Shown here: positions 10,296 through 18,003 of the stretch, one piece after another
Numbering within the stretch: the stretch's first letter is position 1
Layout: every line of letters starts with the position of its first letter
IMG/VR virus record: IMGVR_UViG_3300034111_000621
Span: 1 to 22,472 of that record
DNA length: 22,472 nt
Reading direction: 5' to 3' (one strand)
Source: a virus
Notes under the pieces: generated by a model
Told to the model about the DNA's origin: nothing
Database searches by the model: none
Seen by the model: the letters and a program-made list of their open reading frames with translations, nothing else
Position numbers and translations under genes: made by a program

Positions 10296-11297
10296 TTAGA
10301 ATGCAGAAATTTGTTTCTTTTCTACAAATCTACTTTTAACTTCCTTAATATTTATTTTCATTTGCTTATAGTAGGAATCCTTTAATTCAATACCAATAGC
10401 TTTGCGACCTAAAGACAATGGAGAATAAACCTCACTTCCAACCCCTGCAAAAGGAGTTAAAACAACTTCATTAGGATTTGAATACAATTCTACCAATCTA
10501 TCAATTACATCTAATTGTAAAGGGTGTACATGCTTTTCGTCATCTTCTTCTTTGGAATCTCTAAAAGGTAGAACATTATCAATTCTAATATCATCCCAAA
10601 CACTCGAAGCATACCTTTGCCAAATGTAGTGATTTAACTTTGTGATTTTATCTTCTTTGTTTATGTTGTTTAAATGTTCCCAAAGTTGTTCTTCGTTTAA
10701 GTCTGAGTTATTTGCATTGTTCCAAGCCCTTAAAATGTTTGGCAAAATTGGAATTTCGCCTGCATAATAATTTATTCCAAATGGATGTGTTACTGGTACT
10801 TCATTTTCACCTTTTTTTGTAAATACTAAAACATAATCAGGCATAGCAGTAAAACATTTTGTTGAATCCTCAACTATAAATTTGTGCATTAAAGATTGAA
10901 CCATTGTTCTCATTCTTACTTTTAAAGGCTCTTTCCAAATAGTTATTCTGTTTCTGTATTCAAATCCAAACTTTTCGTGAATCTTAATAACCTCGTGTGG
11001 AAAATCCCAAAGCCTACAAGTATTATCAAAAACATCTGTAACGTGAACAGCGTTTATTCTGCCCGGCTTTGTTACCCTCGACAATTGCTCTACTAAAAAT
11101 TCATATTGTTGCAAAAATTGTTCTTTGTTTTCACAATTAGAAAAATCTTTTTCACTACTTGAATAATTGTATAAACCTGCAAACGGAGGTGAATAAATTA
11201 CTAAGTCAATTGATTCTGTTTTTAAGGTGCTTACGACCTCCATGCAATCGCCATTATAGATTGCATAATTTTCTTTTACTTCTTGTTCTTTTACCAT
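10296..11297 (-). CDS. DNA methyltransferase (N4-cytosine/N6-adenine type)
   Basis: 333 residues. Catalytic motif IV is SPPF (36-39, in DLVIYSPPFAGLYNY), and the SAM-binding motif I comes late as FAGVGSE (283-289), followed by GIELKDSYY. IV before I is the beta-class order. SPPF/SPPY is common in N4-cytosine enzymes, though N6-adenine ones also occur. It starts 1 nt after the helicase stop, so the two are co-expressed. No restriction nuclease is beside it, so protection from host restriction, or a helicase-linked modification, is more likely than a complete R-M system. The target sequence cannot be read from the protein. Confidence 0.85.
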   Translation of the reverse strand: MVKEQEVKENYAIYNGDCMEVVSTLKTESIDLVIYSPPFAGLYNYSSSEKDFSNCENKEQFLQQYEFLVEQLSRVTKPGRINAVHVTDVFDNTCRLWDFPHEVIKIHEKFGFEYRNRITIWKEPLKVRMRTMVQSLMHKFIVEDSTKCFTAMPDYVLVFTKKGENEVPVTHPFGINYYAGEIPILPNILRAWNNANNSDLNEEQLWEHLNNINKEDKITKLNHYIWQRYASSVWDDIRIDNVLPFRDSKEEDDEKHVHPLQLDVIDRLVELYSNPNEVVLTPFAGVGSEVYSPLSLGRKAIGIELKDSYYKQMKINIKEVKSRFVEKKQISAF

Positions 11298-11298
11298 T

Positions 11299-12669
11299 TT
11301 AAATAAAGTTAGGTGTGATTATTTGATTGTTAAATTGTTTTGTTTTATGTTCAAATACTTGATTTACATTTTTAGTTAGATTTTTATGTAATTCAATTGC
11401 TTTTTGTGTTTTTTGTTGTAGTGCTTCAATTACTCTTGTTTGTCCATCGGAAATAACCATATCAATAACAACATTGTTTTTTTGTCCAAACCTCCAAAAT
11501 CTACGAATAGCTTGGTAGTATTGCTCATAACTCCAAGTAGGAAAAAATACTGAATGATTGCAGTGTTGCCAGTTTAATCCCATTGAAGTCATTTTTGCCT
11601 TTGTTATTAATCTTTTTATTTCACCATTAGCAAAAGCCAAAAGTATTTCCTCTTTTTTTTCGATAGTTTGACTTCCAATTATTTCGACTGCTTCTTTATC
11701 TGAACTTTTTAAAATAGCACTCTCATTGTTAGTATTGCACCAATAAACAGAAGTTTTATCTTTTGCCAATTCAATAGCCTTTACACATCTTTTTTCTTCT
11801 GTTTGTTTTTGTTCGTGTCTTACCTCAGTCATTGATTTAGCAATAGGAGTGAACATTGTTACTTGCCCATTTACATCAAACATAGATTGATTTTCTACAA
11901 TATGTTTATTGACAATTAACTCAGGCAAATTATACCTTTGATTTGAAAATCCTATATCAGAAGGCATTTTTACCATTATTGCCCATTGATTTACCCAAGC
12001 AAAAAAATCTGTTTCAGCGTGTGGTTTTAAATAAAATTTTTCACCAATATTTCTATTATTTGAATCTACTGAGTTTTGGTTATTCTTAAAAAACTTTGTT
12101 AGCATATCCATGTACCCCATGTATCCTAATGCTTCTGAACTGGTTCCAAGTTCTATAAAATCGTTTGGAGATGGAGTTGCTGTGCTTAAATATCTATAAG
12201 GAATTTTTTTTACAAAAGCAGTTACTTGACTTTTTATTTTACCATCAAAGTTTTTAAGTATTGAACTTTCATCTAAAATAACACCTACAAAATCAGATGA
12301 ATCAAAATAGTGCAATCTTTCATAGTTGCAAATAACAATCTTTTTAGTGTGCTTACCATCTTTGGAATACTCAATGTCATCAATTCCAAGTTTCTCAGCT
12401 TCTAAAATAAATTGAAATGCAACCGCTAAAGGAGTTAAAATTAAAACCTTTTTATTAGTGTGTTCAATAATGTTTTTGGCAATTGATAATTGAATTAAGG
12501 TTTTACCTAATCCAGTGTCGGCAAAAATTGCCATCCGACCTTTTTTTACTGCTTTCTCAATAATAAATTTTTGAAAGTCAAAAGCAATTTCAGGAACATA
12601 ATTTGCTTCAAATCCAAAGTTTCCTATTGAGTGCTTCTTTTTTTCTAAAAACTCTAAATAGTTTTGCAT
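11299..12669 (-). CDS. SNF2/DEAD-type superfamily 2 helicase
   Basis: 456 residues. Walker A ADTGLGKT (50-57), motif II DESS (133-136) in GVILDESSILKNFDG, motif III LSTATPSPND (161-170) and a C-terminal motif VI-like RRFWRFGQKNNVV. The spacing between motif III and the C-terminal lobe and the DE-S-S-KN pattern are those of SNF2-like phage helicases or translocases. No separate DNA-binding or nuclease domain is visible. It is translated just before the methyltransferase and is preceded by a 100-nt structured leader with its own promoter, so the pair forms a separate regulated unit between the recombination and replication operons. Confidence 0.88.
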   Translation of the reverse strand: MQNYLEFLEKKKHSIGNFGFEANYVPEIAFDFQKFIIEKAVKKGRMAIFADTGLGKTLIQLSIAKNIIEHTNKKVLILTPLAVAFQFILEAEKLGIDDIEYSKDGKHTKKIVICNYERLHYFDSSDFVGVILDESSILKNFDGKIKSQVTAFVKKIPYRYLSTATPSPNDFIELGTSSEALGYMGYMDMLTKFFKNNQNSVDSNNRNIGEKFYLKPHAETDFFAWVNQWAIMVKMPSDIGFSNQRYNLPELIVNKHIVENQSMFDVNGQVTMFTPIAKSMTEVRHEQKQTEEKRCVKAIELAKDKTSVYWCNTNNESAILKSSDKEAVEIIGSQTIEKKEEILLAFANGEIKRLITKAKMTSMGLNWQHCNHSVFFPTWSYEQYYQAIRRFWRFGQKNNVVIDMVISDGQTRVIEALQQKTQKAIELHKNLTKNVNQVFEHKTKQFNNQIITPNFI

Positions 12670-12685
12670 AGTTTATAAATAGTTA

Positions 12686-12769
12686 AACCCCCTATCAATG
12701 CTGTCAACCGCCAAGTTAAGCAACATCAATAGAGGGTTATTTTTTAAATTTCTTTTCATCTTGGCGGTT
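12686..12769 (-). ncRNA. Structured leader with two interlocking stems (pseudoknot or switch)
   Basis: Minus-strand RNA order A-B-A'-B'. A (12769-12760) AACCGCCAAG pairs with A' (12715-12706) CUUGGCGGUU, 10 of 10. B (12738-12721) AACCCUCUAUUGAUGUUG pairs with B' (12703-12686) CAGCAUUGAUAGGGGGUU over 18 continuous bp with four G.U wobbles. Those wobbles would be A.C mismatches in plus-strand RNA. A' lies in the 17-nt loop of B/B', so the stems form a pseudoknot or exclude each other. The promoter box ends 11 nt before A, and the helicase ATG follows B' by 16 nt. Confidence 0.65.
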
Positions 12770-12779
12770 ATTTCGTTGG

Positions 12780-17822: not shown

Positions 17823-17871
17823 ATTATAATTTAAAAGCCCACGCACAAAAGTTTAAAAAAATTACAGACAC

Positions 17872-17953
17872 ATAACAGCAAATAAGCAAAAGCCCAAATC
17901 CCACCGCACAATGCCAACGCTATTTGTGCCTTCGCTTATCTGCAAAACGTTAT
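17872..17953 (-). other. 82-bp folded element (structured RNA or attC-like site)
   Basis: Minus strand: AUAAC (17953-17949), 5-nt spacer, GCAGAUAAGCGAAGG (17943-17929) pairing with CUUUUGCUUAUUUGC (17892-17878), one base, GUUAU (17876-17872). The main stem is 15 of 15 with three G.U wobbles valid only on the minus strand; the outer AUAAC/GUUAU adds five pairs. Inside is GCACAA/UUGUGC (17929-17924 with 17911-17906). The outer boxes in AAC...GTT arrangement and the size resemble integron attC sites; the wobbles favour RNA. Confidence 0.5.
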
Positions 17954-18003
17954 CAGATTGACTTATCATACATTATAGACTATAATCATAGTTAATGAAT
18001 GAT

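Follow-up and report, generated by a model that had tools for sequence, protein, structure and literature searches.

A self-complementary RNA leader upstream of a helicase-methyltransferase operon belongs to a recurring leader family in viruses of Bacteroidota bacteria

The interlocking RNA leader described here is one of a family of leaders that recurs in viruses infecting Bacteroidota. It lies on the minus strand of the window, the whole stretch of 22,472 nucleotides that was analyzed (IMG/VR record IMGVR_UViG_3300034111_000621). The sequence-based support covers the promoter, the order of the parts, covarying pairing, recurrence, a U-run and gene context. The best reading of the family, to which we give about an even chance, is a cis-acting promoter-proximal attenuator in which the 5′ end of the RNA itself clasps the loop of a terminator. 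To our knowledge, RNA-based control has been little described in phages of the Bacteroidota, a phylum prominent in the gut and in water. No title among the literature searched names such a leader family, which is weak evidence of novelty, most subscription journals being outside the scope of that search. The family is easily recognized by its promoter, hairpins with complementary loops, U-run and ATG, and it occurs in cultured phages.

Results

Structure of the leader in the window

Read 5′ to 3′ on the minus strand, the leader consists of a promoter, A, B, A′, B′ and the ATG of a helicase gene. The promoter follows the consensus TTTG / TAnnTTTG, with a -33 box TTTG at 12809-12806 and a -7 box TACATTTG at 12787-12780 separated by a spacer of 18 nt. 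According to PMC9723704, the -7 box of F. psychrophilum is located at -12 to -5 relative to the start, and from this spacing the RNA start in the window was predicted near 12775. A preliminary description of this DNA had placed a matching promoter ahead of A, as found here, but its start point is corrected by this assignment, which puts the first base of A near +7 (~6 nt from the predicted 5′ end) and 9-10 nt downstream of the TTTG of the -7 box.

A (AACCGCCAAG, 12769-12760) and A′ (CTTGGCGGTT, 12715-12706) form a perfect duplex of 10 bp. B (12738-12721) and B′ (12703-12686) form a hairpin of 18 bp including four G·U pairs, with A′ in its loop, and the two helices interlock. These positions and lengths, the 2-nt link between A′ and B′ and the 16-nt gap from B′ to the ATG had all been given in the preliminary description and were confirmed. 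B′ is followed by a weak U tract (TTTAACTATTTA), and downstream, also on the minus strand, are genes for a SNF2/DEAD-type helicase (11299-12669, ATG at 12669) and, next in the operon, an N6/N4 DNA methyltransferase (10296-11297), both identified by Pfam.

The combined score of the two helices (-43.6) was reached by none of 5000 dinucleotide shuffles of the leader, the best of which scored -30.4, and the minimum free energy had a z of -3.0. In the minimum free energy fold (-28.9), hairpin B/B′ was formed and A′ lay in the loop region of that hairpin. The plus strand folded more weakly (-20.6 vs -28.9) and contained no element in the same test, which accepts only an A located no more than 20 nt into the stretch examined. 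At up to one mismatch, the sequence of A occurred at only two places in the whole window, the A and A′ sites themselves. A, A′, B and B′ have no base in common, so both helices can in principle coexist. The earlier suggestion that the stems are alternatives of a switch is conceivable and was not supported by these four segments; in the family the two helices could coexist as kissing hairpins.

Covariation in homologous leaders

A pattern fixing only the lower B stem retrieved 25 stretches from viral contigs. Among the distinct sequences listed, those with both promoter and interlock were the window type (L002, L094), L137, L303, L304, L307 and L309; distinct matches without the promoter (L297, L298, L299, L300, L301, L305 and L306) were left out of the alignment and the interlock test. 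L088, found by an A/A′ pattern, has a perfect -7 box and a weak -33 box (2/4) and was counted as promoterless among the B-pattern sequences. The resulting alignment of eight leaders (A1) omits the near-identical L094, L127 and L162 and the divergent L329.

With the pseudoknot structure imposed on this alignment, 92.4% of 224 cells were paired and 9 of 28 pairs carried changes on both sides. None of 500 shuffles was as high on either pairing or double changes, and slid partners paired in 39-51%. Helix A/A′ was paired in 96.3% of cells, with three pairs changed on both sides (one being a C-G pair replaced by U-A in L303 and L304), five of the rows (L307, L137, L303, L304 and L309) having been selected by the lower B stem pattern and not by A/A′. 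Helix B/B′ was paired in 90.3% of cells, with six pairs changed on both sides, and its G·U positions were not the same in the window and L088. Loop bases thus pair outside their hairpin with covariation, as in H-type pseudoknots or kissing hairpins. The preliminary description had named homologues that keep the sequence and lose the pairing as evidence against its claim; the opposite was seen, pairing being kept with both sides changed.

A search of Rfam with the window leader and L082, L085, L137, L101, L309, L303 and L304 gave no match at the curated score, and nine more loci searched at E ≤ 5 gave seven matches, all under the gathering score. As none reached threshold, a known Rfam family was rejected, in line with the earlier statement that the leader is not a known riboswitch or ribozyme. 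The proposal of a cis-regulatory minus-strand RNA is supported by this result, by the covariation and by recurrence behind promoters.

A short open reading frame across the structure

A 28-codon ORF (12759-12673, minus strand), possibly a leader peptide, extends across the entire structure, with its stop codon 3 nt short of the helicase ATG. Its own ATG, after A, occupies the same place in the homologues except L309, where it falls within the end of A. The stop is 3 nt from the gene ATG in the window, L094, L109 and L307 and 4 nt in L088, and short ORFs also stop 0-7 nt ahead of the gene ATG in L113, L135, L011, L263 and L272. These distances favor a rival reading, translational or mRNA-stability control, in which the 5′ clasp and a hairpin near the start codon would protect the mRNA or gate ribosome entry, a reading that we regard as possible and on balance improbable. 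In the window it would take the form, held with the same reserve, of a leader-peptide-like ORF whose translation is coupled to that of the helicase. Leader peptides couple translation in this way in I-complex plasmids.

The ORF itself is less constant than this rival would have it. Read by eye, it ends well before the gene ATG in L304 and L309 and runs into the gene with no stop in L137. An ATG before B is present in 30 of 66 family elements, where a frequency of ~0.47 is expected from composition; as this is no excess, the short ORF was rejected as a general feature of the family. Translational coupling is possible in the window group and is not a family trait.

The conserved nucleotides of B are read in different frames, as NPLL in the window and VPSI in L303 (by eye), and the frame of L309 differs as well. 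Because the frame over B is not conserved, coding sequence was rejected as an explanation. That the structure is due to chance or is a by-product of the ORF, which is at least present in the window group, is hardly credible given these frame differences, the 5000 shuffles and the covariation in homologues.

Recurrence behind phage promoters

For the best 80 of 596 relatives of the helicase in viral contigs, the leaders were inspected and had the same order of parts in unrelated sequences. A loose topology scan, with neither promoter, U-run nor strict score, found the arrangement in 22 of 58 distinct leaders, compared with a range of 6-19 over 20 shuffles and with 20 when the reverse strand was scanned, and was rejected as evidence because it was too close to chance. 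A scored detector was built for this reason, combining the A/A′ energy, the second hairpin folded with A′ unpaired, a stem around A and the U-run. Applied to 703 kb, it gave 58 matches at ≤ -30 vs 2 in the shuffle, and 41 vs 0 when a perfect TAnnTTTG box upstream was added, both counts including near-identical relatives.

A promoter-first test, in which the U-run was not required, took in 221 AT-rich loci (1.89 Mb) with 957 unique promoter-like sites. Elements at ≤ -30 were found behind 67 of the 957 sites and behind none with one shuffle per site, although about six of the 67 are doubtful (L286, L034 5781 and L078 are chance-like; L117, L129 and L192 each represent some other element read from its opposite strand). 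A limit on hairpin energy removed one, and the remaining 66, which are not independent and comprise 46 distinct A sequences, were used for the U-run, antisense and ORF counts. A larger set of 94 unique elements includes chance rows, such as those in contigs L118 and L158. The A/A′ pattern scan matched at least 119 loci; among the matches listed, 60 were distinct, 11 with a perfect -7 box and 49 without.

Host DNA gave a different result. Across 400 kb from two host chromosomes there were 159 promoter-like sites, none of which carried an element, even at ≤ -26 (0/159 vs 67/957 in phages, Fisher p 2e-5). Without the promoter condition the detector gave 10 matches at ≤ -30 in the 400 kb of host DNA, none with a perfect -7 box, indicating that shuffles understate the background of the detector. 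Model R1, applied with stricter filters to 149 genomes of a Lutibacter MAG's family, gave two weak matches, which on reading resembled ordinary gene-end hairpins and were rejected as host-encoded copies. The promoter plus CCGCCAAG pattern was absent from 198 genomes of the same phylum. Both of the latter searches are blind to members with other sequences.

Terminator-like second hairpin and two architectures

A run of at least four T directly followed B′ in 51 of 66 elements (77%) vs 11.7% of 4155 background positions, and a run of at least five in 58% vs 3.4%; the U-run had no part in the selection of these elements. Past the GC part of B′ the tail is TTTTTT in L307 and L088, TTTCTTTTT in L137 and TTTAAC in the window and the near-identical L094, L109, L127 and L162. 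Among 59 element leaders, 47.5% had five or more T at -26 to -8 of the ATG, compared with 7.1% of the 198 leaders without an element, so the U-run was rejected as a general feature of start regions. Because it accompanies element leaders, the second hairpin of the family (H2) is terminator-like by its sequence, and the same 51 of 66 elements combine a stable hairpin with a direct U-run as intrinsic terminators do. The specificity of the U-run for leaders with an element argues against translational control of the family.

Consensus promoters in antisense orientation within 200 nt were no more frequent at elements (6 of 66) than elsewhere (53 of 831). Given the U-run in element leaders and this lack of antisense promoter excess, promoter-proximal cis attenuation with a clasped terminator loop would be the most economical reading of the family. 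A countertranscript attenuator was rejected on the same promoter counts. In pT181-type attenuators of this sort, a terminator in the leader of a replication gene is controlled by loop-loop pairing with an antisense RNA. The present leaders share the terminator ahead of replication genes and the loop-loop pairing and differ in having the complementary loop on the same RNA.

A stem around A (H1) was present in 49 of 54 elements with A 9-17 nt after TTTG, compared with 26% at shifted positions, in one of three with A 6-8 nt after TTTG and in one of nine with A within 5 nt. This dependence on distance distinguishes two architectures, kissing hairpins and a 5′-terminal pseudoknot. A U-turn (YUNR) near the 5′ side of A′ was rejected as a general feature, being present in only 20 of 66.

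The copy in the window is a divergent member of the family. Its weak U tract lacks a run of four U, as do those of its near-identical relatives (16 of 67 elements in all), so that a stable hairpin with a direct U-run is not present. A 5′ hairpin around its A was looked for and none was clear, and the 28-codon ORF overlaps the structure. Given these features, control of the window copy may be translational. Its retention of all stems with almost no U tract fits that rival, and for this copy translational or stability control is favored over attenuation.

H2 often has an internal loop between two stems, such as GGA/AAA or AGUAG/CGAAA (FCV-1 (L085) 35886 and 40372, L011 5432, L225 4079 and L101 9005); the window copy has no such loop. 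The AGUAG/CGAAA form resembles the loop-E/sarcin-ricin motif, and the internal loop is a possible protein site. An extra small hairpin with a loop of about TnnCTTAAAA and variable stems appears, by eye, to lie between the U-run and the ATG of ORFs of ~58-77 aa (L073 5411, L208 23, L210 5666, L240 5062, L258 4665, L274 5109, L222 5506 and L228 5658) and is possibly a translational operator.

Phages and downstream genes

Elements were found in 6 of 10 named-phage records scanned. Credible elements numbered three each in snusmum6-1 and hattifnatt9-1 and two each in FCV-1, mymlan6-2 and Cellulophaga phi18:3; hemulen9-1 had two and one doubtful row (8200). None was found in OP947161, phi3:1, crAss001 or tant8-1 (39.9 of 40.5 kb read). 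Nine viral contigs chosen for holding an element had 1-3 credible copies each, with one in the contig of the window's species, and six further doubtful rows (G006 two, G009 one, G011 one, G012 two; G011 was read over 39.8 of 41.2 kb). A DnaB query for further loci found only itself, the L080-type protein had no match in named phages, and nothing close to the 10-kb contig L101 was present in those phages. Genome contigs held 12 loci related to the window helicase, mostly in MAG contigs, with L293 and L294 from named alphaproteobacterial strains.

Pfam assigned a family to five of ten downstream proteins, among them DnaB and NUMOD4/HNH, and PHROGs assigned eight of ten (primase/helicase, DNA helicase, DNA methyltransferase, Erf, primosomal or initiation proteins and RecT), the two sets overlapping by five proteins. 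Taken together, the assignable families were SNF2/DEAD, DnaB-type and primase helicases, primosomal/initiation proteins, Erf, RecT, DNA methyltransferase and HNH/NUMOD endonucleases. Elements thus often precede replication or recombination genes, and many more stand ahead of small ORFs of unassigned function. The preliminary description made no mention of this link to replication genes, of the U-run that most members have, of the hairpin enclosing A at the 5′ end, of the short ORF or of the divergence of the window copy.

The distance from B′ to the ATG was 12-19 nt in 39 of 86 unique elements with an ORF found, as would suit translational control, and 41-51 nt in 15 of the 86, which would not. 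Because it is not uniform, this distance weakens the attenuation reading and its translational rival about equally. The start codon was within 51 nt downstream in 84 of the 86.

Diversification of the loop pairs

Seven leaders could be aligned (A2; snusmum6-1, hattifnatt9-1, FCV-1 and four contig loci) and carried five distinct loop pairs. Six of eight loop-loop positions were changed on both sides and no pair was broken; as the rows were found by complementarity, the pairing is partly selected and the changes between rows are not. The sister phages snusmum6-1 and hattifnatt9-1 differed by two compensated loop changes. Loops also differed in six of six contigs with more than one element, one of which counts an opposite-strand row. 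The pair CCGCCAAG/CTTGGCGG was common to several otherwise different leaders, among the matches listed the window type, the L095 type, L052 and L215.

A subfamily of near-fixed sequence (ACCGCCAAG, AACACC...GGTGTT) comprised L095, L096, L113, L117, L120, L141, L146, L159 and L087 and, among the matches listed, L101 and L131. In this subfamily A begins 2-3 nt past TATATTTG, and at so short a distance the RNA would start inside A.

The elements could be separate genes for trans-acting small RNAs that end at the U-run, with the downstream gene a mere neighbor. Their own promoter, compact fold and U-run would suit such genes, and we consider this reading very unlikely because a start codon follows so closely and because the loops differ within a contig, each pairing with itself.

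An unlikely reading, although of greater weight than the last, is put-like cis antitermination, in which the folded leader would bind its own polymerase and cause it to ignore later terminators. According to PMC9378689, HK022 put is a ~70-nt RNA of two hairpins downstream of early promoters, present twice per genome and acting in cis on terminators ≥10 kb away. The present elements resemble put in being phage-borne, probably cis-acting structures of two hairpins (~90 nt) directly after promoters, with 1-3 credible copies. Unlike the similar putL and putR, the elements within one phage share little primary sequence; their hairpin loops are mutually complementary, a U-run follows most of them, and of the two kinds of leader only put is described as antiterminating. 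The word "kissing" is absent from the text of PMC9378689.

Discussion

In the attenuation reading, a host-type promoter would start an RNA whose segment A, lying in roughly the first 20 nt and usually in the loop of H1, is complementary to loop A′ of H2, with the U-run usually directly after H2 and the start codon soon after. A would clasp the terminator loop while the terminator forms and the polymerase leaves the promoter. This contact of loop and 5′ end would set the amount of transcription entering the operon, and early replication genes may thereby be tuned together. As the helices have no common base, a classical antiterminator is not expected and the effect of the clasp on termination is a guess; it may promote or prevent termination, and a protein bound to H2 may modulate it. 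In the window the clasp is kept as a 5′-end pseudoknot with long stems and almost no U tract, and for this fold an effect on the initiation or the stability of the helicase mRNA is the more likely one. If the family does attenuate, it would provide a terminator design that dispenses with mutually exclusive folding and would supply a natural library of possibly orthogonal loop pairs.

The HMP-PP (thiS) riboswitch, an aptamer embedded in a terminator, likewise has a possible pseudoknot on a terminator hairpin upstream of a gene, according to PMC6478431. That riboswitch adopts one of two mutually exclusive folds, has a conserved loop and is associated with thiamin genes, whereas the present helices have no common base and their loops are variable.

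The window pair AACCGCCAAG/CTTGGCGGTT contains CGCCAA/UUGGCG, and L303 and L304 have CGTCAA/TTGACG at this place. In the ColIb-P9 repZ leader CGCCAA is reportedly the partner of UUGGCG. The I-complex rep pseudoknot and the window group thus share this loop pairing, a replication gene and a short leader ORF; here CGCCAA comes first, reversing the order, and relatives have a U-run. An I-complex antisense Inc RNA with a rep gene was not found, the downstream gene being a helicase and the family having no antisense promoter excess. The likeness adds to the case for translational control, since PMC3753616 mentions a TTGGCG loop in connection with translational regulators of plasmids and, according to PMC8383071, translation of repZ requires a pseudoknot.

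A wider proposal, tentative and in our estimate improbable, is that the family represents a new class of phage riboregulator, in which several early operons each carry a self-clasped terminator and the loop pair is a private, fast-diversifying, compensated address code. In that case the short RNA released by termination could also act in trans, pairing with newly made transcripts of the same element only. If true, this trans pairing would lead to copy-number feedback or superinfection exclusion. The feedback would be similar to that of plasmid incompatibility loops, from which the present elements differ in having both halves on one RNA.

An additional intergenic repeat

A separate intergenic repeat of ~75 nt (TAACGTTTTGCAGATAAGCGAAGGC ... 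GCTTTTGCTTATTTGCTGTTAT) was noted in the window at 17850-17960 on the minus strand. No match to it was found in 41 genomes of a Lutibacter MAG's family. It is common to otherwise different phage contigs (L109 5171-, L007 5471+) and occurs twice in one (L322 14797- and 15645-). Its arms are imperfectly paired and its ends are TAAC/GTTA, features that presumably recall integron attC sites.
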